From positions 62,001 through 126,000 of the forward strand of contig NZ_FNIA01000003.1 in assembly GCF_900103505.1 (NCBI RefSeq): a stretch of 64,000 nt of DNA, in the 5' to 3' direction. The notes beneath the pieces were generated by a model. It saw nothing but the letters and a program-made list of their open reading frames with translations, had not been told where the DNA came from and made no database searches. The stretch comes from Haloarchaeobius iranensis. GTDB taxonomy: Archaea; Halobacteriota; Halobacteria; Halobacteriales; Natrialbaceae. Shown piece after piece: positions 3,270-37,108 of the stretch. Numbering within the stretch: position 1 is the stretch's first letter; every line of letters begins with the position of its first letter. The position numbers and the translations under genes are program-made.

Positions 3270-3366
3270 ACAGCCACGTACCTGCACCACGAACATAAAG
3301 GAAACGGGCCGACCGTAATCCACCGAAGTGACAACCCTTAGGGCGACGGCTTGCGCACGAAGGGGT

Positions 3367-21980: not shown

Positions 21981-22055
<75 letters not shown>

Positions 22056-25351: not shown

Positions 25352-26002
25352 TTACTCCGTCCGTCGCCAGAACGCCCAGTCGCGAGACCGGATCGGGCCT
25401 GCGTCCGCAGTTCCGCCCGTCTGTCCGGCCAGTCGCTCGGTGCGGAGGTGGGCCGCCGCGGTGGCCGCGAGCGCTCCGGCGAACAGTCCGCCGTACGCGA
25501 ACCCCGGTAGCGAGGCGAGGGGCGGGACAGCGAGCCAGCCCAGCGCGACGACGACGACGAACGACGCGGCGAGTGCGAGGTAGCGCTTGCCCCATGCGCT
25601 TCCGGGGACGGCCGTCTCGACCAGTTGCTCGGTCAGGTACGGTGCGAACGCCGCGGTCATGTCGGTCCGGGCGACGGTGCCACGCGACTTGTCGTAACCG
25701 ACGATCCCGTTCTTCGCCAACGCCGGGAGGTGCGTCTGGACGAGCGAGGTGTAGACGCGCTTGCGCTGCTTGTACTCGAGAGCGGGCACGGGAACCCCAC
25801 ACTCTCGCGCGGCGACGTAGGCCGTCAGCTCGCGAACGGTCAGTTGTTCGGACGTCTGCAGTGCCCGCAGTACCGACCGTCGGCGCTGGTTGCTCAGCGT
25901 CTGGTAGACCACGTCGGTGCTCAGTTCCTGTCCACTCGTCGATGTTTCCGGCGATTCGAGCGTGCCGCTGCTCCCCCCATCGCCTTCGGCTACAGTATCC
26001 AT
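25352..26002 (-). CDS. DUF7344-type HTH membrane-linked regulator
   Basis: A 216-residue protein. Residues ~28-125 form a winged-helix domain (VVYQTLSNQRRRSVLRALQ, then YTSLVQTHLPALAKNGIVGYD) of the haloarchaeal DUF7344 kind. Two membrane helices follow (residues ~145-190). The layout suggests a membrane-tethered transcription regulator. The start is preceded by GGGGGAACAATG, very similar to GGGGGGACAATG before the second such gene at 28434. It converges with rpl10e, 12 bp apart. Confidence 0.83.
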   Translation of the reverse strand: MDTVAEGDGGSSGTLESPETSTSGQELSTDVVYQTLSNQRRRSVLRALQTSEQLTVRELTAYVAARECGVPVPALEYKQRKRVYTSLVQTHLPALAKNGIVGYDKSRGTVARTDMTAAFAPYLTEQLVETAVPGSAWGKRYLALAASFVVVVALGWLAVPPLASLPGFAYGGLFAGALAATAAAHLRTERLAGQTGGTADAGPIRSRDWAFWRRTE

Positions 26003-26250
26003 TGTTCCCCCAATATCACAGCGCACTTATGTGTCTTAACCGTGCCGGTGGTCGAGACCGCCGTTGCCACGGGGTGAGAATGGAGCGCTGGGTGCGAGAA
26101 AACGTTGACTCCAGGGGCTTCAGTGCCGTATATTTCCGCTACTTGGCCACGCCGGCTTACCGCTGGTACTGCTGTCATACCTATGTCGTGTAGCGGTGTA
26201 ATAGTACCGAGAGGTCGGCGCATCGAGCGACCGGCCCAGGAGACTTTACG

Positions 26251-27906: not shown

Positions 27907-28434
27907 TCAGAGCAGCGCGCGCAGCAGGCCACCACGCTGGCCCCAGAGCTGGTAGGCCGAGGAGATGGCGAAGGTCGCGAGGAACGCGGAGGCCAAGGCC
28001 AGCGGCGGCATCGCGGCGACGACTGGGACGCTCGCGAGGGCGGCGACCACGAGGAACAGCCCGACAACCCCGAGGGCACGGTAGTACTCGGCCCAGCTGA
28101 CGCCGAAGGCGGCCGTCATGGTCATGTAGCGCTCGACCTCACGAGCGGAGTCGAGGAGCGAGACGAGCTTCCGGTCGGCGTCGTACGCCAGGACCCCGGC
28201 CTCGTCGAGCATTGGCAGGTGGGTCTGGTGGAGCGACACGTACACCGTGTGCCGCACACAGCGTGGGGCCGGGTCCTCCCCCGATTCGACCGTCGCGATG
28301 GCCTCGGCGAGGTCGCGGAGCGCGACGCGCTCGTCGTGGCGTCGCAGATACTCCAGCGTGTGGCGGCGGCGTGTGTTGCTGAGAATGGTAAAAACGTCCG
28401 AATCGGGTACTTCGCGTGTCTTGTTGAGTAACAT
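27907..28434 (-). CDS. DUF7344-type HTH membrane-linked regulator (second copy)
   Basis: A 175-residue paralogue of the protein at 25352-26002. The winged helix (VFTILSNTRRRHTLEYLRRH, then VYVSLHQTHLPMLDEAGVLAYD) covers residues ~12-115, and two membrane helices end the protein. An alternative ATG four codons upstream (28446) exists. It is divergent from the SipW-type locus, with 551 bp between them, and might regulate that locus; this is only context. Confidence 0.83.
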   Translation of the reverse strand: MLLNKTREVPDSDVFTILSNTRRRHTLEYLRRHDERVALRDLAEAIATVESGEDPAPRCVRHTVYVSLHQTHLPMLDEAGVLAYDADRKLVSLLDSAREVERYMTMTAAFGVSWAEYYRALGVVGLFLVVAALASVPVVAAMPPLALASAFLATFAISSAYQLWGQRGGLLRALL

Positions 28435-28985
28435 TGTCCCCCCCATGACGCGCCGAAACGCGTCGTCGAACGTACGGTACACGCGCGGGGGGAATAGGTA
28501 TGGAGAGCGGACAGCGGTGGGGCGGTACGAGCAGGACCGTCCTTCAAGCGTGAATTTTCGGGGAGGTACGCTCGCTCGAACCGGCAGGAACCTCAATCCA
28601 GTACTGAGTCTGCCAGTACGGTCACCGTGTCTGTCTGTGACGAGTTTCTCGCCAAAATCGATAGACTGCGGCACTCTAACGGCTCCAACGACCTCCGCAG
28701 GGGCGTCCTACCAGTTCCGGCAAGCTAGGTGGTAGCAGGACCGGACCGGAAAGCAACGAGTCACTGAGAAGACGAAAGGAGAACATAAGTAATACGATAG
28801 GTGTCGGAGGTGGAGGTAGCCCGTCGAAGGGGGACCGGCACGTCGAGGGCATTCGGGGTGCGACGGGACCGTCGCTCACCGACCCTCGCGTGATGGCGTA
28901 CACAGGCGGGCTCACATCGACTTGGAATGGCACACGGATGGTTCGACTCCGTCACCAGGTCTTCCCCATGGGGGGAGCATATACA
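28435..28985. other. Divergent promoter region of the surface-protein locus
   Basis: A 551-bp non-coding stretch. Left part: promoter of the DUF7344-type gene. A TATA-like CATAAGTAATAC at 28784-28795 could start the rightward transcript near 28820, giving a leader of ~165 nt. In that leader lie a hairpin GCGACG-GGAC-CGTCGC (28860-28875) and the first structured leader element (28919-28978). Confidence 0.55.
28919..28978 (+). ncRNA. tRNA-like structured leader, copy 1
   Basis: The outer stem GACTTGG (28919-28925) pairs with CCAGGTC (28955-28961). The inner T-arm-like hairpin is GATGG-TTCGACT-CCGTC (28937-28953, one G-U pair). A second hairpin, CCCC (28964-28967) with the G run 28970-28975, covers part of the GGAG ribosome-binding site. 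The start codon follows 8 nt later at 28986. Outer-stem bases differ from copies 2-4 by compensatory changes. Confidence 0.7.
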
Positions 28986-30311
28986 ATGACAAACGAAAGA
29001 CAACACCTCTCTCGGCGGACCGTCCTCGCTGGCCTCGGCACCGTCGGTGTCGCAGCTGCGGGCGCGGGTCTCGGTACTACTGCACTCTTCAACGACCGCG
29101 AGGGATTCATCGGCAACTCCCTCGCAGCCGGTTCGCTCGACCTCCTGCTCGACTACAAGGCGACCTACGACGGCCCGAACGGCGTCGAGGTCCTCGGACA
29201 GCAGCCCACCCCGGCGGAAGAACAGGCCTGGGAGGACCAGTTCGGCGGCGAGATAGACTACTGCTCCGAGGATGGCCAGGCACTCCTCATCAACGGCACC
29301 GATATCCCCGTCTTCGGGCTCGACGACGTCAAGCCCGGTGACTCCGGCGAGGTCACCGTCAGCCTCCACATCTGTGACAACCCCGCGTGGGTGACGATGT
29401 CCGGCTCCATGTACGACAACCTGGAGAACGGCCAGACCGAGCCCGAACTCGCCGACGAGGGCGAGGACACCGACGGCGTCGGCGAGCTCGCCGACCACAT
29501 CGAGGTCACCATGTGGTACGACCCGAACTGCAACAACGTCCTCGACGACGGTGAAGTGGTCCTCTTCGAGGGGAGCATGACCGATGCCTTCGCGGCGCTC
29601 GAGGCCGGCATCGGCCTCGACGGCGACGCAAGCACACCCGAGTTCGACCCGGTCCCCGGGGCGAGCACGTACTGCATCGGCTTCTACTGGGAGCTGCCCG
29701 TCGACGTGGGCAACGAGGTCCAGACCGACTCCGTCAGCTTCGACCTGGTCTTCGACGCCGAACAGTCGCGGCACAACCCCGCCGTGACGACCAGCCAGGG
29801 CGAGGGTTTCGAGCCGTTCCAGCAGTCCTCGTTCGCACGGGCTCGCTACGGCGGCACCAACACCTGGGAACTCGCGGTCGGCACCGCACCCGGTAACGCC
29901 GACGAGGCGGACTACACCTGGACCTCCGGTGCGACCGTCCCGTTCGCCTACGAGTACGACGGCGTCGGCTCTGCAACCTTCACTGTCGACAGCGTGACCG
30001 TCGCCGACTCGATTCCGGCACCTGCCGGACGCTTCGCGTTCGTCGGCAAGGCCGACGAGGCGACCGTCACAGTCGAGAACCTCGCGCTCTCCGTCGACGG
30101 CGACCCGATCAGCCTGGTCGGTCCCGGCACGATGACCGCGTCGAACGACGACGACGGCACGGAGCGCGACATCCAGCACCTCGTCGTCAACACGAGCGCG
30201 GCACAGGTCACCCAGCCGTTCACCGTGACCGGCGACCTGACCGGAACGGTACAGGGCGACTACGACACCTCCGCGGAGGAGGGCATCGCCCTCGACCTGG
30301 TCTTCGAGTAG
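28986..30311 (+). CDS. SipW/TasA-type exported protein with extra C-terminal beta domain
   Basis: A 441-residue exported protein. The signal region combines a Tat motif (SRRTVLAGLG, residues ~9-18) with the SipW-type cleavage context (LGTTALFNDREGFIGNSLAAGSLDL). The mature N-terminal domain (to ~residue 260) is a TasA/camelysin-like beta sandwich with the shared landmarks HICDNPAW, WYDPNCNN and VGNEVQTDSVSFDLVFDAEQSRHN. A further ~170-residue Thr/Val/Ala-rich beta domain follows that its two tandem paralogues lack. It has no vWA insert. Its leader carries structured element copy 1. It is probably a cell-surface or filament subunit. Confidence 0.88.
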   Translation: MTNERQHLSRRTVLAGLGTVGVAAAGAGLGTTALFNDREGFIGNSLAAGSLDLLLDYKATYDGPNGVEVLGQQPTPAEEQAWEDQFGGEIDYCSEDGQALLINGTDIPVFGLDDVKPGDSGEVTVSLHICDNPAWVTMSGSMYDNLENGQTEPELADEGEDTDGVGELADHIEVTMWYDPNCNNVLDDGEVVLFEGSMTDAFAALEAGIGLDGDASTPEFDPVPGASTYCIGFYWELPVDVGNEVQTDSVSFDLVFDAEQSRHNPAVTTSQGEGFEPFQQSSFARARYGGTNTWELAVGTAPGNADEADYTWTSGATVPFAYEYDGVGSATFTVDSVTVADSIPAPAGRFAFVGKADEATVTVENLALSVDGDPISLVGPGTMTASNDDDGTERDIQHLVVNTSAAQVTQPFTVTGDLTGTVQGDYDTSAEEGIALDLVFE

Positions 30312-30329
30312 CCGCGCTGCTCGGAGCCT

Positions 30330-30390
30330 GACCCGGATTGGCGCACACGACGGTTCGACTCCGTCGCCGGGTCGTCCCCTAAGGGGGGAG
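30330..30390 (+). ncRNA. tRNA-like structured leader, copy 2
   Basis: The outer stem GACCCGG (30330-30336) pairs with CCGGGTC (30367-30373). The inner hairpin GACGG-TTCGACT-CCGTC is at 30349-30365. CCCC-TAA-GGGG (30376-30386) follows and overlaps the GGGGGGAG purine run that precedes the ATG at 30400. Confidence 0.7.
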
Positions 30391-30399
30391 TACAAACCA

Positions 30400-31887
30400 A
30401 TGACGACCGACAAGCAACACAACATCTCCCGACGGACGGTCCTCGCCGGACTGGGCACCGTCGGCATCGCCGCCGCAGGCGCGGGCCTCGGCACGACCGC
30501 ACTCTTCAGCGACCGCGAAGGCTTCATCGGTAACAGCCTGGGCGCGGGTTCGCTCGACCTGAAGCTCGACTACGAGGCGACCTACCTCGGCGGTGCGGGC
30601 CGGCTCGACGACATCGTCGCCATGGGCTACCCCGACGCCGAGGACCTCGGCGGTGGCCGCTACCTGCTCGACCAGGCACCGCGCCCGGGGGAGGGCCAGG
30701 GCTGGGACGACTACGTGACCGGGGAAGGGTTCGACTTCTGTGCACCCGAGAACGACGAGTTCCTCGTCAACGGCGACGAGATGCCCGTCTTCACGCTCTC
30801 GGACATCAAGCCCGGGGACTGCGGTGAGGTCACCATCAGCTTCCACATCTGTGACAACCCGGCCTGGCTCGACCTCTCCGGGAGCGTCTACGACAACAAC
30901 GAGAACGGCCGGACCGAGCCCGAGAGAGCGGTCGACGAGACCGGTGGGAACCCCGGCTTGGGCATGGGCGAGCTCGCCGACCTCATCGAGGTCTGCGTCT
31001 GGTACGACGAGGACTGCGACAACGTCTACGAGCCCGGCGGCGAGGGCGAAGGACAGGAGCTCGAGGTCGCACTCGTCAGCGACGTCTCCGGCTCGATGAA
31101 CGGGTCGAAGATCGCCGCGCTGCGGAACGCTGCCACCGACTTCGTCGACAACCTCGCACAGCCCGACGAGGTGGCTGCCATCTCGTTCAACTCCGGTTCG
31201 AATCTCGACCAGGCGCTGACGACCAACTACCAGGCCGTCAAGGACGCCATCAACAACTACAGTTCGGGCGGCACGACGAACATGAGCTCCGGCATCATCA
31301 CTGGTGACAACGAGCTGACCAGCGGGGCGAACGCGACGCCGTCGGCGTCGAAGGTCATGATTGTCCTGACCGACGGCGTGGTCAACAGCCCGCCGAGCGC
31401 CGAACAGGCCGCGACCGACGCGAAGAACAACGGTATCCGTATCTTCACCATCGCCCTCGGTGGGGACGCCGACCAGACCTTCCTCGAGAACGACATCGCC
31501 AGCAACCCCGGGGACGCGTTCCTCGCCCCCGACGCTGCCGACCTCGACACCATCTACGAGGAGATCGCACAGATCGTCCTCGAGGGCGAGCAGAAGGTCC
31601 TCTCCGGCACGATGGCCGAGGTGTTCGTCGAGCTCGCAGAGGGTGTCCCGCTCGACGGCGACCGCACCTCCGAGGAGCGCGACCCGTACGCGGCAGTGAC
31701 CACGCAGTGCATCGGCTTCGAGTGGTGCCTGCCCGCCGAGGTGGGCAACGAGGTCCAGACCGACTCCGTCAGCTTCGACCTCGTCGTCGACGCCGAACAG
31801 TCGCGGCACAACGACAACCCCGGTGGTGAGAACAACAGCAGCGACGGTGGCAACAGCACGCCGCCCACGACCACGGCTGCGAACTGA
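30400..31887 (+). CDS. SipW-type exported protein with inserted vWA domain
   Basis: A 495-residue paralogue of the preceding gene, with the same Tat/SipW-type signal (SRRTVLAGLG; GTTALFSDREGFIGNS). The beta-sandwich landmarks are split: between WYDEDCDN (~residue 205) and LSGTMAEVFVELAEG (~400) a complete von Willebrand A domain is inserted. It has a full MIDAS set (DVSGSMNGS; Thr in GGTTNMSSG; LTDGVVNS). The tail is Asn/Ser/Thr-rich with several N-glycosylation sequons. Metal-dependent adhesion to a partner is the likely role. It lies 88 bp after the upstream gene, with leader copy 2 between them. Confidence 0.9.
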   Translation: MTTDKQHNISRRTVLAGLGTVGIAAAGAGLGTTALFSDREGFIGNSLGAGSLDLKLDYEATYLGGAGRLDDIVAMGYPDAEDLGGGRYLLDQAPRPGEGQGWDDYVTGEGFDFCAPENDEFLVNGDEMPVFTLSDIKPGDCGEVTISFHICDNPAWLDLSGSVYDNNENGRTEPERAVDETGGNPGLGMGELADLIEVCVWYDEDCDNVYEPGGEGEGQELEVALVSDVSGSMNGSKIAALRNAATDFVDNLAQPDEVAAISFNSGSNLDQALTTNYQAVKDAINNYSSGGTTNMSSGIITGDNELTSGANATPSASKVMIVLTDGVVNSPPSAEQAATDAKNNGIRIFTIALGGDADQTFLENDIASNPGDAFLAPDAADLDTIYEEIAQIVLEGEQKVLSGTMAEVFVELAEGVPLDGDRTSEERDPYAAVTTQCIGFEWCLPAEVGNEVQTDSVSFDLVVDAEQSRHNDNPGGENNSSDGGNSTPPTTTAAN

Positions 31888-31939
31888 ACCGACCGAAGAC
31901 TGACTGCCTCGACCGTCGTGCCTCGGGGGGCGCGACGGT

Positions 31940-32010
31940 GGCCCACCGGTCACAGGGACCGACGACGACGGTTCGACTCCGTCGGTGGGCCGTTCCCCGA
32001 AAGGGGGGAG
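31940..32010 (+). ncRNA. tRNA-like structured leader, copy 3
   Basis: The outer stem GGCCCACC (31940-31947) pairs with GGTGGGCC (31984-31991), 8 bp of quite different sequence from copies 1, 2 and 4. The inner hairpin GACGG-TTCGACT-CCGTC is at 31967-31983, directly abutting the outer stem as in a tRNA. The linker here is longer and can form GGTC/GACC. The ribosome-site hairpin is CCCC-GAAA-GGGG (31995-32006) with a GNRA tetraloop; the ATG follows at 32022. Confidence 0.7.
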
Positions 32011-32021
32011 TACACAGACAA

Positions 32022-33542
32022 ATGACCGAAAAGAAGACGTACGACATCACCCGGCGGACGGTCCTCGCGGGCCTGGGAACCGCCGGCATCGCGGCGGCCG
32101 GCGCGGGCCTCGGCACGACTGCACTGTTCAACGACCGCGAGGGGTTCGTCGGCAACAGTCTCGCTGCTGGTCGGCTGGACCTCCAGCTCGACTACAAGGC
32201 CACCTACGACGGCCCGAACGGACTCGAGATGATCGGACAGGCACCGACCGAGCAGCAGCTCATCGACCAGGGCCTCGTCGGTATGGCCGAGGGCCCGATG
32301 ACCTGGGAGGAGCGCGCGGACCTCGGGTTCGCCTGTGACACCGAGGGGTTCATCGACGGCGACGCGATGCCGGTCTTCGAGCTCGACGACGTCAAGCCCG
32401 GGGACTGCGGTGAGGTGACCGTCAGTCTCCACATCTGTGACAACCCCGCCTACCTCTGGATGCGCGGGAGCGTCTACGACGACCTCGACAACGGACTCAC
32501 CGAGCCCGAGGGCGAGGTCGACGACACGCCCGACGTGGGCGAGCTCGCCGAGAACATCGACGTCACCCTCTGGTACGACGAGGACTGCTCGAACACCATC
32601 ACCGAGGGCGTCGGCACGAGCGACATCCTCGTCGTGCAGGACGTCTCCGGCTCGATGGAGTACGACCAGTACGGCGGTGAGATCTCCGACGGCCAGGGTG
32701 GCACGACCACGAAGCTCGCCGTCGCCAAGGACGCGATGGGCGACTTCGCCACCATCGTCTTCGACGAGACCGCCGACACCGAAGTCGGCGTGTTCACCTT
32801 CGGCAACGAGGACTACATCGGCGACGCACAGGCACCGGGCATCGCGTTCGGGCCCTCGGGGACCGAGGCCGACGTGCAGAACGCAATCGGGAACATCCAG
32901 GCGGTCCCGCAGGGCGTGACCGGTACGGCCCTCGGGCTCGCGGTGCAGGAGGGCGACGACTACCTCAGCGCGAACGCCCGCACCGGTGCACAGAAGATCA
33001 TGATCCTGCTCACCGACGGCGAGCAGTTCGCGAGCAGCGTCGACGAGCTCCAGGCCGCCAACGACGCCAAGGCCGGCGGCACCCGCATCATCGTCATCGA
33101 CATCAACGACCCGGGCGACGGCGAGCCGCAGCTGCTTCGGGACATGGCCGGGACGACGGTCAACAACCCCGGTGACGGCGACGGGACCGACTACTACAAC
33201 ACGTCGGCGGACGACCTCGCAGTCGTCCTTCCCGTCATCTATCAGTCGATCATCGAGTCCGTCGTCGTCGGCGAGGTGGTGTTCTTCGAGGGCACCCTGG
33301 CCGAGTTGAACGACGCGGCGTCGGGCGGCCTCAAGCTGGAGGCGCTCCCGCTGCTGGCCCAGGCCAGCGACGGGGACGAGTACTGCTTCCTGCCGGGCAC
33401 CCACTGCGTCGCGATGGAGTGGTGCATCCCGCGCGAGGTGGGCAACGAGATACAGACCGACTCCGTGACGTTCGACCTGGAGTTCGCCGCCATCCAGTGC
33501 CGGCACAACGGCGAGAACGCCAACCCGTTCGGGGCCGCCTGA
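32022..33542 (+). CDS. SipW-type exported protein with inserted vWA domain (second)
   Basis: A 506-residue paralogue. The Tat motif here is TRRTVLAGLG, and GTTALFNDREGFVGNS marks the SipW-type cleavage region. The vWA domain is inserted at the same place, between WYDEDCSN and VVFFEGTLAELND, with MIDAS residues in DVSGSMEYD, GVTGTALG and LTDGEQF. The C-terminus keeps VGNEIQTDSVTFDLEF. The two vWA inserts are clearly diverged from each other, so the duplication is not recent. Leader copy 3 lies directly upstream, with a strong purine-rich ribosome site. Confidence 0.9.
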   Translation: MTEKKTYDITRRTVLAGLGTAGIAAAGAGLGTTALFNDREGFVGNSLAAGRLDLQLDYKATYDGPNGLEMIGQAPTEQQLIDQGLVGMAEGPMTWEERADLGFACDTEGFIDGDAMPVFELDDVKPGDCGEVTVSLHICDNPAYLWMRGSVYDDLDNGLTEPEGEVDDTPDVGELAENIDVTLWYDEDCSNTITEGVGTSDILVVQDVSGSMEYDQYGGEISDGQGGTTTKLAVAKDAMGDFATIVFDETADTEVGVFTFGNEDYIGDAQAPGIAFGPSGTEADVQNAIGNIQAVPQGVTGTALGLAVQEGDDYLSANARTGAQKIMILLTDGEQFASSVDELQAANDAKAGGTRIIVIDINDPGDGEPQLLRDMAGTTVNNPGDGDGTDYYNTSADDLAVVLPVIYQSIIESVVVGEVVFFEGTLAELNDAASGGLKLEALPLLAQASDGDEYCFLPGTHCVAMEWCIPREVGNEIQTDSVTFDLEFAAIQCRHNGENANPFGAA

Positions 33543-33957
33543 GCGGGCACCGACCGGCTCGTTCGAGCCGAAGCTCCATCCCATAGCGAGACGACGGCCG
33601 GGGCCGTCGCCGCCCACGCCGACCCGGACGGGTACACGACGGTTCGACTCCGTCACCGGGTCCTCCCCGCGGACGGGGATACCACTCGATGCGCCGACAG
33701 ACGATGCCGCCAACCGGGCGTCGCCGACGTCGCTTCGGGCGAACGGTTCCAGGGTCGCCGTACCGGACGGCAGGGTCGGCCGACCGCTCTCCGAGCGGCC
33801 GGTAGTGGTCCACGTCCGGCTGGCGAGCGACCCATACCTAAACCCGTTGCTGTCCTTTCGACAGGCGAGAAACGACGACGAGGACTGCCGACCGGGGGTC
33901 GGACGAACGGGTCACGTCGTCGAGTCCGACACGCCGCCTGGGGGCGGCAGGGGGGAA
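33543..33957. other. Intergenic region with orphan leader
   Basis: A 415-bp gap. It holds structured leader copy 4, followed by a 38-codon Arg-rich frame (33689-33805) that does not resemble the SipW-type proteins. A further hairpin GCCGCC-TGGG-GGCGGC (33932-33947) comes just before the GGGGGG ribosome site of the next gene. The region looks like the remains of a deleted cassette. Confidence 0.5.
33621..33679 (+). ncRNA. tRNA-like structured leader, copy 4 (orphan)
   Basis: The outer stem GACCCGG (33621-33627) pairs with CCGGGTC (33656-33662). The inner hairpin GACGG-TTCGACT-CCGTC is at 33638-33654. A third hairpin TCCCC/GGGGA (33664-33668 with 33675-33679) has a six-base loop. Stems are kept, although no SipW-type gene follows the ATG at 33689. 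Confidence 0.65.
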
Positions 33958-34701
33958 ATGGTGACATCTACACAGAAACAACTGAATCGACGCGACCTTC
34001 TCGCTGGCCTCGGTGCCGGCGCGGTCGGGCTCGCCGCACTCTCGGGAGGGACCGGCGGGTTCGGCTCCAGCCCGGCGTACACGCACTACGCGTACGCAGC
34101 ACCGAACTCGCTGGTCAGAGTCGCATGGTTCGAGACGTACAACGGTGACGTTCTCGAGGGACAGAACGGGTCGACGGTGACGAACGGAAGCACCGTCCTC
34201 GACCCGGACGAATCGCCGGCGTACGTCGACGACGTGCCGGGGCCCGTGGTGACGCTCGACAACCTGCTCCCGGGCGACGAGGGGACCCTCGTCGTCGGGT
34301 TCGAGGCAGTGGACACGCCGGCGGAGGTCCGTCTCCGTCCGCAGCTCACCGGGACCGCGGAGAACGGTATCGTCGAGCCGGAGGCCGCCGCCGGTGACAC
34401 GACGTCGACCGCCGGCGAGTTACAGGACGCGCTGCTGGTCGAGTGCTGGCGCGACTCCGGCCTGCTCGGCGGCTGTGACGGCCGCCGCGGACTCGGTGAC
34501 ACCACCATCACCACGGGCACGCTCCAGAGCGTGAGCGACGAGTACGGCGCCGACGGCATCGCCGTGGGCTGTCTCGACGGTGGCGAGAACCGCTGTCTCG
34601 GGTTCACCTGGCGGTTCGACCCGTCGAGCACCGACACCCAGACCGACAGCGTCACGTTCGACCTCGTCTGCGAGGCGACCAGCTGTGGAGGGGCACAATG
34701 A
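33958..34701 (+). CDS. Tat-exported beta-rich protein of the SipW-type locus
   Basis: A 247-residue protein. The signal LNRRDLLAGLGAGAVGLAALSGG is a good Tat signal but lacks the SipW-type FNDRE context. The mature part has weak similarity to the neighbours (landmarks DNLLPGDEGTLVVGF and TDTQTDSVTFDLVCEA). Paired cysteines occur in the second half (GGCDG, VGCLDGGENRCLG). The start at 33958 follows a purine run. The stop overlaps the next ATG (ATGA), so it is coupled to it. Confidence 0.83.
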   Translation: MVTSTQKQLNRRDLLAGLGAGAVGLAALSGGTGGFGSSPAYTHYAYAAPNSLVRVAWFETYNGDVLEGQNGSTVTNGSTVLDPDESPAYVDDVPGPVVTLDNLLPGDEGTLVVGFEAVDTPAEVRLRPQLTGTAENGIVEPEAAAGDTTSTAGELQDALLVECWRDSGLLGGCDGRRGLGDTTITTGTLQSVSDEYGADGIAVGCLDGGENRCLGFTWRFDPSSTDTQTDSVTFDLVCEATSCGGAQ

Positions 34702-35867
34702 GCGGCCTCACGCGGCGCGAGATCCTCGTCGGTGCGTCCGTCATCGGCGGTGCCGGCGCGCTCTCGACGGCGAGCACGTACGGCGCACTGGTCGACCTGG
34801 AACGGTTCACCGGGAACTCGCTGCAGGCCGGCCTGCTCGACCTGCTCGTCGAGTGGGACCACGACGGCGAGACCGGAGCCAGCGACGGACAGGTGTCCAT
34901 CGACCTCGGGACCCTCTCGCCCGGCGAACAGGGATTCGTCGAGTTCACCGTGGACCTCCCCGAGTCCAGCGAGGGCATCAACAACCCCGCCTACACCTGG
35001 CTGCGCACGTTCTGCCCGTCCACGACCGGCCGGCTCGCGGGCGCGCTCGGCATCAGCCTCCGGTACGTCGACGAGACCGGCGCGTACGCGAGTGACACCC
35101 TCTTCGAGGGCACGCTCTGCGACGTCGCCCGCACGTACCAGACCGGGCTCCCGCTGGACCCGGCCCAGGACCCGAACGCGACCGTCCCCGGCTGCCTGAA
35201 CGCCGCCGAGGACGGACCGCTCCACCTGCGACTCGACTACGAACTCGCCGCCGATTACGTCGGCGAGGAGACGGTCGGCCTCGGCTTCGAGTTCGCGGCG
35301 GTCGCCTGCCGGCACGCGGACCCGACCGGGGCGGGCCCGTTCTCGCGCGCCGCCCGCGTCGACTGCTACTGCGGCCCCGACAGACACGGCGTCAGCTACG
35401 TCGAGGTGTACGTCTGCGAGGCCGGTGCACCCGGCTGCGACTGCGTCCTGCTCGGGAAGCTCGAACTCGACGACAAGCTCCCCGCTGACTGCGGCATCGG
35501 CACGCCCGCGACGCTCGGCGAGAACTACGTCGAGCCGGGTCGCTACACCCTCCCGGTCGACGACGACTGCGAGGGCTCCGGCTACGACATCGTCGTCACC
35601 GAGACGGCCAGCAGGCCCGCCGAGGACGACGGCCGCGACGAAGTCGTCGCGCTCGCCTTCCGCGTGGAGGGCGACGGCGACACGCCGGCTCCGACGCTCT
35701 GCCAGGTCGCCATCAAGGGCGGCCGGGGCGTCGCTTACTACGGCCCCGAGGACCTCGATGGGAACGGCACCGACGGTGTCCTCGGCGCGCCCGAGAACGA
35801 CGACGGCACCTCGACTGGTGGCTCGACGGACGACGGCACCCCCGGCAGCGGAGGTGGTCGCCGATGA
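34698..35867 (+). CDS. SipW-type exported, Cys-rich protein
   Basis: A 389-residue protein. The signal TRREILVGASVIGGAGALSTAS again begins with RR, and ERFTGNSLQAGLLDLLVEW matches the post-cleavage SipW-type context. The first ~210 residues follow the TasA-like pattern (NNPAYTWLRTFC; FEFAAVACRHADPTG). Then comes a ~130-residue Cys-rich domain (VDCYCGPDRHG, GAPGCDCVLLGK). The tail is Gly/Asp/Thr-rich. Overlapping ATGA junctions on both sides place it between the previous gene and the signal peptidase. Confidence 0.85.
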   Translation: MSGLTRREILVGASVIGGAGALSTASTYGALVDLERFTGNSLQAGLLDLLVEWDHDGETGASDGQVSIDLGTLSPGEQGFVEFTVDLPESSEGINNPAYTWLRTFCPSTTGRLAGALGISLRYVDETGAYASDTLFEGTLCDVARTYQTGLPLDPAQDPNATVPGCLNAAEDGPLHLRLDYELAADYVGEETVGLGFEFAAVACRHADPTGAGPFSRAARVDCYCGPDRHGVSYVEVYVCEAGAPGCDCVLLGKLELDDKLPADCGIGTPATLGENYVEPGRYTLPVDDDCEGSGYDIVVTETASRPAEDDGRDEVVALAFRVEGDGDTPAPTLCQVAIKGGRGVAYYGPEDLDGNGTDGVLGAPENDDGTSTGGSTDDGTPGSGGGRR

Positions 35868-37108
35868 GCCCCGAATCGACCCGTGGAACCGCTCTCCGGG
35901 CGGTCGGTGTCCTGCTCGTGCTGGCGCTGGTCGTCCCGTTCGTCGTCTTCGCCGTCCCGCAGGTCGTCGGCGCCGACGCGAGCTTCGTGGTCATCTCCGG
36001 TAGCATGGAGCCCGCGATCTCCGTCGGTGACGCGGTCGTCGTCGCGGCGGTCGACGGCGACGAGGTCCGCGTCGGCGACGTCATCACCTACGTCACGGCC
36101 GACCGCGCGGCCCCGACGACCCACCGTGTCATCGAGATACAGCAGACCGCCGCCGGCCCCGAGTTCGTCACACAGGGTGACAACAACGAGGACCCCGACG
36201 CGAGCACCGTCACGCCCGACCGGCTGGTCGGCCGCGTGCTACTCACCATCCCGTTCATCGGGTACGTCGTCGAGTTCGTCGGCACGACGACCGGCTTCGC
36301 GCTGCTCGTCGCGACGCCCATCGCGTTGCTCGTCGTCACCGAACTGTGGTCGCTGTACAGGCGCCGCACCGGGAACGACGAGGCCGAGAGTGTCGCCAGC
36401 GGCGCTGCGAGCGACGGCACCGCGAGCGCGGCAGCCGTCGCCACCGACGACGAGCAACCCGCCGGCTGGAGCATCGGCGTCCGCGACCTGACCGTCACGA
36501 TGGCGGTCGTCGGCGTCGCGGCCGTCTACTCCGGCGTGGTGGCCTACCTCGTCTACGACGGCTCGGTCACCTACCTGCGGCTGCTCCAGCTGAGCGTCGC
36601 GGCGTTCGCGGCCTTCGCCGTCGGGTTCCTGGTGCTGCTCGGGATGCGGGTGTTCGTCAGCCCGTCGAGCGACACGGCGGCTGCCGGCGGCACCCTTCGC
36701 GGGTCGCTCGACGAGACGACCCGCTCGCTCCCCACGGTCACCGTGGCCAGCGTGGCCGAGCTCCGGGGCATGGCCACCGCGGCCGAGCGCTGGCTCGTCC
36801 ACGACGAGGAGCACGACCGGCTCAGCTACTCGGACGGCACCATGCTGTACGTCTGCGAGGTGCCCGACGACGGCGAGGACCCGGCTATCGCGACGGCCGA
36901 CGAGCCCGTCACCGGGGAACTGACCGCCACCGACGACTCGGTGCTCGACGACGACGCCACCGGCGGGCCGGTCGTCGACGACGCCGTCGCCACCGAGGAG
37001 GCCGCCTGGGCGGCCCTGTTCGGTGATGCGTTCGAGCACGAGAACGGGGAGTTCACCTTCCCGACGCGCGACGCGCGACCCGACGGAGGTGAGGACGGTG
37101 AGCAGTAG
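35864..37108 (+). CDS. SipW/Sec11-type signal peptidase I with extended membrane tail
   Basis: A 414-residue signal peptidase. The catalytic Ser is in ISGSMEP (Ser ~47), and His is in TTHRVIEI (His ~87), as in the archaeal/ER Ser-His type. A following Asp is in TQGDNNEDPD (~106-110). Membrane helices lie at ~10-35 and ~130-160. Unusually, ~250 more residues follow, with two or three further helices (~200-265) and an acidic tail. It is embedded among SipW-type substrates with overlapping starts, so it is the natural enzyme for their processing. Confidence 0.9.
   Translation: MSPESTRGTALRAVGVLLVLALVVPFVVFAVPQVVGADASFVVISGSMEPAISVGDAVVVAAVDGDEVRVGDVITYVTADRAAPTTHRVIEIQQTAAGPEFVTQGDNNEDPDASTVTPDRLVGRVLLTIPFIGYVVEFVGTTTGFALLVATPIALLVVTELWSLYRRRTGNDEAESVASGAASDGTASAAAVATDDEQPAGWSIGVRDLTVTMAVVGVAAVYSGVVAYLVYDGSVTYLRLLQLSVAAFAAFAVGFLVLLGMRVFVSPSSDTAAAGGTLRGSLDETTRSLPTVTVASVAELRGMATAAERWLVHDEEHDRLSYSDGTMLYVCEVPDDGEDPAIATADEPVTGELTATDDSVLDDDATGGPVVDDAVATEEAAWAALFGDAFEHENGEFTFPTRDARPDGGEDGEQ

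Follow-up and report, generated by a model that had tools for sequence, protein, structure and literature searches.

Leaders made of a t-element and a hairpin before SipW/TasA-like genes in Haloarchaeobius iranensis: candidate mRNA processing sites in haloarchaea

The Operon and Its Leaders

The window analysed here is a stretch of 64,000 nucleotides from the haloarchaeon Haloarchaeobius iranensis (contig NZ_FNIA01000003.1, here C49, positions 62001-126000, within the 3.77-Mb genome), and it contains an operon for secreted proteins in which genes 1-3 are each preceded by a tRNA-like part, or t-element, with a hairpin immediately behind it. Judging from the sequences, the likeliest reading is that the conserved unit combines a site for cutting the mRNA with a hairpin that would become 5'-terminal, with hiding of the ribosome-binding site at most a side effect. 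The features of the operon are listed below, with scores for the t-element model R2 and with Shine-Dalgarno abbreviated as SD; the SipW/TasA-like N-termini of genes 1-3 were assigned by inspecting the sequences.

28919-28961 (+), t-element copy 1: acceptor-like stem, linker with GG, T-arm (R2 match, 46.3 bits)
28962-28977 (+), hairpin copy 1, UUCCCC(AUGG)GGGGAG, directly at the predicted cut (motif search, predicted pairing)
28970-28977 (+), SD-like GGGGGGAG inside the copy 1 hairpin
28986-30311 (+), gene 1: SipW/TasA-like N-terminus, choice-of-anchor W domain
30330-30373 (+), t-element copy 2, 18 nt past the gene 1 stop codon (R2 match, 61.2 bits)
30375-30389 (+), hairpin copy 2, UCCCCU(AAG)GGGGGA (motif search, predicted pairing)
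30383-30390 (+), SD-like GGGGGGAG at copy 2
30400-31887 (+), gene 2: SipW/TasA-like N-terminus, VWA domain
31940-31991 (+), t-element copy 3, with a small additional arm in the linker (R2 match, 40.5 bits)
31993-32010 (+), hairpin copy 3 (motif search, predicted pairing)
32003-32010 (+), SD-like GGGGGGAG at copy 3
32022-33542 (+), gene 3: SipW/TasA-like N-terminus, VWA domain
33621-33662 (+), t-element copy 4, downstream of gene 3 (R2 match, 56.1 bits)
33664-33679 (+), hairpin copy 4, loop CGGA, without SD
35864-37108 (+), SipW-type signal peptidase I of the operon (TIGR02228, 112 bits)

An earlier note on this DNA had described, in each leader, a hairpin at the tRNA-like part running into an SD-like site, with the start codon 8-11 nt downstream. 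For copies 1-3 this was borne out: the motif TCCCC-loop-GGGGGGAG has exactly three matches in the window, at 28963-28977, 30375-30390 and 31994-32010, where 0.03 are expected and three were reached in none of 100 shuffles, and the ATG follows GGGGGGAG after 8, 9 and 11 nt. Copy 4, outside the range of that note, has a hairpin and no ribosome site. The two-base loop AT given there for copy 1 is too short, the fold being the one listed. An in-frame ATG (28968-28970) lies within the loop of this hairpin and is a possible alternative start of gene 1.

The bare pattern CCCC-N2-6-GGGG is not above chance in the window (six found against 11.5 expected), and four of the six sit 3' of a tRNA-like part. 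We rejected a chance motif as the explanation: the bare pattern is not rare, but its position behind a tRNA-like part is. Fold z-scores of single leaders are weak (-0.1 to -2.4), so that the case for the hairpin rests on comparison between leaders; single-sequence folding energies were set aside as too weak a criterion to decide. RNAfold predicts that minihelix (the t-element) and hairpin form simultaneously in copies 1-3 and gives no alternative conformation for them at 37 and 45 °C (standard salt only), so the two-state switch proposed earlier finds no indication of mutually exclusive states. The copy 1 T-stem comes out weak in these predictions (0.03) and is not favoured at standard salt.

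At copy 4 the hairpin is a six-pair stem lacking GGAG, and RNAfold on a longer stretch favours a different fold. No gene of the SipW/TasA-like family begins at its end, the next one starting at 33958; the role of this copy may be just to cut the transcript downstream of gene 3. Its t-element and hairpin are retained in congeners (regions L077, L078 and L181).

The t-Element and Its Kinship to the 5S rRNA Element

The t-element consists of a T-arm, with a 7-nt TTCRA-type loop on a 5-bp stem, and an acceptor-like stem stacked upon it, and it lacks an anticodon arm. At the leaders Rfam 15 gave no match above the gathering score and ARAGORN no tRNA, the sole tRNA of the window being a tRNA-Glu at 21981-22055; a tRNA gene or a known Rfam family was rejected as their identity on this basis. 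The model R2 was built from the t-element part alone and uses neither hairpin arm (51 candidates with linkers of 9-16 nt, of which 42 were aligned and 26 entered the model). Changes on both sides were found for 8 of the 13 pairs in these 26 sequences, whose acceptor strands had been chosen for pairing, and for 10 of 13 in 145 model matches, an alignment fitted to the model; neither value was reached in any of 500 shuffles. In 123 of 145 linkers the first GG comes 2-4 nt past the acceptor strand, against about 25% of shuffled linkers. G18 and G19 of tRNA join the T-loop according to PMC4810234, and by analogy the linker GG could mimic the docking of these D-loop bases.

The next-best R2 matches in the same genome are its two 5S elements (C47:192537-192581 on the minus strand and C58:3219-3263), and five further 5S elements (regions L200, L216, L217, L221 and L223) are among the 85 R2 matches. 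In all seven cases one base separates the end of the R2 match from the Rfam 5S start. The 5S t-element is described as being cut by tRNase Z, which forms the 5' end of 5S rRNA (PMC4326828, PMC7714728), and with this calibration we place the cut in the leaders where the R2 match ends, to within one base. A U stands immediately after the predicted cut in 74 of 85 R2 matches, with or without a hairpin. By their sequences the leader element and the 5S rRNA element are one kind of structure, both being found by a single model.

Hairpin Position and Gene Association

Another model, R1, was made from six sequences and ends at the C-run, the G-run having been deliberately excluded, and its searches used no gene information. 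At E<=0.05 it matched in 233 of 292 genomes of the class, many of the matches being weak. R2 at E<=0.001 found the minihelix in 192 of 391 class genomes and in 21 of 196 genomes of a phylum sample; among the matches listed for the latter, all fall in the family or order of the window. Regions were fetched from part of the matches (80 for R1, the strongest, and 60 for R2). R1 supplied 198 matches in 82 sources, from which the five weakest were dropped. Of the remaining 193, 177 are followed, mostly after about 22 nt, by an open reading frame with an RR-type N-terminus, as defined by a loose regular expression that includes a few chance frames. Most of the genes behind the element have RR-type signal peptides, SipW/TasA-like ones foremost. 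In the genome of the window (C62:26839-26882, minus strand; region L023) and in a congener (L171:2162-2203, minus strand), a t-element precedes another small membrane or secreted gene.

When the matches were limited to unique sequences with an RR-type N-terminus and a start no more than 70 nt away, 167 R1 leaders were left, or 133 after clustering. In this set, found by a model that prefers C-runs, 144 of the 167 leaders have a hairpin stem that begins 0-2 nt downstream of the predicted cut, as do 112 of the 133 clustered ones (shuffles 6-10%). In the R2 set it is present in 42 of 85 and absent in 43 (shuffles 6%). By gene class, as defined by our own regular expressions, the counts are 26/32 for SipW/TasA-like genes, 6/13 for the GAFTSV type, 5/22 for other genes, 5/13 where the gene was unassigned and 0/5 for 5S. 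Because its presence tracks gene class, the hairpin is a feature of SipW/TasA-like leaders and not of t-elements as such; and since many t-element leaders lack it, the predicted cutting would not need it. Region L081 has, near 3296 on the plus strand, a t-element with another T-arm-like stretch, GTGGGTGCGAGTCCCACCC, behind it in place of a leader hairpin.

The stem itself is conserved as pairing. A stem fixed in sequence around a changing loop, as first described, is found within the window and not beyond it: a paralogous operon of the same genome, at C39, holds two further leaders of this type, one of them with the compensated stem CCUC-GAGA-GAGGUG, and many different paired stems occur in relatives, rebuilt for example as GCCCGG/CCGGGC, UCGCCC/GGGCGA, UCAUCCC/GGGAUGA and CCUUC/GAAGG. 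For the 38 5' arms other than CCCC, the leader's own 3' side pairs better than the 3' regions of other leaders (0/500). Loops range from 3 to 7 nt with pairing preserved, and among 70 four-base loops six are GNRA and two UNCG, a weak preference for special tetraloops.

Where the leader is 40 nt or longer, the hairpin stays at the t-element, far from the start codon, in 13 of 15 cases. Some t-elements that lack a hairpin have an ATG 1-4 nt past their end; these are predicted by a cut site, which would give leaderless mRNA, and not by a ribosome-site switch. An ATG 3-4 nt past a hairpin-less t-element is seen at L112:6308-6350, L178:1685-1727, L193:2227-2269 (minus strand), L125:6812-6854 and L155:6826-6886, where cutting would yield near-leaderless mRNAs of other secreted-protein families.

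The Ribosome-Binding Site

The haloarchaeal SD consensus is given as GGAGGUGA in PMC8241225, according to which an SD is not strictly required in these organisms. For Haloferax, PMC4983044 puts the leaderless share of protein-coding transcripts at 72%, and its authors judge control via structured leaders to be untypical. The 3' end of 16S rRNA was not found in the genome of the window by exact pattern, so the generally known anti-SD was used; on that basis copies 1-3 can pair with it at -9.7 to -10.2 kcal/mol. The core of their G-run is predicted to be paired (most positions 0.75-1), the final AG of GGGGGGAG being partly open.

The hidden ribosome site of the earlier note fits copies 1-3, where the predicted pairing of the core is combined with SD-like spacing, and is not supported as a role that the family conserves: of 126 hairpin leaders of SipW/TasA-like genes, 57 contain none of GGAG, GAGG, AGGT or GGTG at -20 to -4. 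An SD 4-mer overlaps the 3' arm in only 52 of the 126, so the stem does not conserve the SD, and several stems have non-SD 3' arms (CCGGGC, GGGCGA, TCCCGGT). Of the 15 long leaders (40 nt upwards), at least 7 have a separate GAGG by the start codon. Since long leaders hold the hairpin at the tRNA-like part, its position follows the predicted cut and not the ribosome site. On SD content and long leaders together we reject a hidden-SD switch as the general role; masking of the SD is possible in copies 1-3, and is not a function shared across the family.

Discussion

Anatomy, covariation, position, gene association and likeness to the 5S element are established by the sequences. In the mechanism that we propose, tRNase Z would cut the t-element 3' of its acceptor stem, as it does before 5S rRNA, and RNase P would probably cut on the 5' side; cutting would separate the cistrons of the secreted-protein operon and trim the leader of its first gene. 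The resulting mRNA would start with a UCCCC...GGGGA hairpin and have its start codon about 5-10 nt behind it. Most likely this hairpin would protect the new, presumably monophosphorylated 5' end from 5'-3' decay, and in short leaders its G-rich 3' arm near the start codon may tune ribosome access and so affect translation. That each leader is a processing site at which a tRNase Z cut leaves an mRNA with a protective 5'-terminal hairpin seems to us rather probable. More tentatively, with chances that we put a little under even, the same would hold for a class-wide set of haloarchaeal mRNAs, whose 5' ends would come from tRNase Z and not from a promoter and whose exposed hairpin would protect the mRNA and set ribosome access, with t-elements as the punctuation of operons for secreted SipW/TasA-like proteins.

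Several points weigh against this proposal. Cleavage in vivo, stabilisation and any translation effect are things that we infer. The hairpin is missing in 6 of 32 SipW/TasA-like leaders and in most other t-element leaders. Some hairpin is also found in the last 32 nt before SipW/TasA-like genes without a detected T-arm (34 of 87, shuffles 12%) as well as before those with one (102 of 150, shuffles 17%), a comparison blurred by missed t-elements in the former group. Two further findings fit a role at the ribosome site as well: the 3' arm ends 5-10 nt upstream of the ATG in 115 of 149 leaders, and leaders pair with the anti-SD at -9.0 kcal/mol against -5.1 kcal/mol for shuffled ones.

These last two findings, with the SD-like G-run covered by the stem in copies 1-3, are what would be seen if the hairpin were a regulator that hides the ribosome site until a signal opens it, be it salt, temperature, a protein or cleavage of the minihelix upstream; in Haloferax, synthetic riboswitches covering both SD and AUG are reported to function, with up to threefold effect (PMC8241225). 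We nevertheless consider such masking unlikely, given the many hairpin leaders without an SD 4-mer or without one in the 3' arm, the SD-free stems, the distance of the hairpin from the start codon in long leaders and the predictions for copies 1-3, in which no alternative fold was seen. The tight spacing to the predicted cut, and the fact that structured RNA also follows the 5S element, could instead mean that the hairpin assists the cut, as a structured trailer by which tRNase Z is positioned or made faster, and has no later role. This is less likely still, because about half of the t-elements found independently of the hairpin (43 of 85) have none and its presence goes with the gene family, not with the t-element. 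A last reading takes it as an inverted repeat at the DNA level, an operator of the kind that can lie near gene starts, or as a transcription terminator. This is highly improbable here, as no result supports it, the hairpin is tied to a covarying RNA-type minihelix and its loops vary from 3 to 7 nt with pairing kept. No U-run follows it, and a terminator was rejected on that ground.

Processing with a protective 5' hairpin would combine features of known systems. A t-element before haloarchaeal 5S rRNA was reportedly described by Hoelzle et al., in 2008 and 2012; it too stacks an acceptor-like stem upon a T-arm, lacks an anticodon arm and lies directly before the mature RNA, whereas the leaders precede protein genes, often several per operon, and those of SipW/TasA-like genes carry the hairpin that 5S sites lack. 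In mitochondrial tRNA punctuation, tRNAs between cistrons mark the cut sites of transcripts; here too tRNA-like parts lie between cistrons as predicted cut sites, but ARAGORN finds no functional tRNA in them. The E. coli ompA mRNA has a stabilising 5'-terminal stem-loop, as the leader mRNAs would at or near their predicted extreme 5' end, except that this end would come from tRNase Z. RNA thermometers and translational riboswitches mask the SD, and copies 1-3 share with them a stem over an SD-like G-run; the differences are that no alternative state or ligand site was seen in the leaders and that the SD is not conserved in the stem.

T-elements are already known; the literature found, insofar as its text was available, does not describe them in front of numerous protein genes together with an extra 5' hairpin. 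If the proposal is true, the leaders are a large and easily tested natural set of mRNA substrates for archaeal tRNA-processing enzymes. They would also provide a rule for making short-leadered mRNAs inside haloarchaeal operons and a means of tuning the members of surface-protein operons separately, and the assumption of a hidden-SD switch would no longer be needed.

Two observations concern the surroundings of these operons. In the paralogous operon (region L016), the two leading genes have no t-elements; a block around GTGACGTGGCGACGGATAACTAC, perhaps a promoter, is common to both, about 40-110 nt upstream of L016 1251 and 3274. Upstream of the operon in the window, on the opposite strand, lie two DUF7344 genes (25352-26026 and 27907-28674, both minus), which are possibly regulators.

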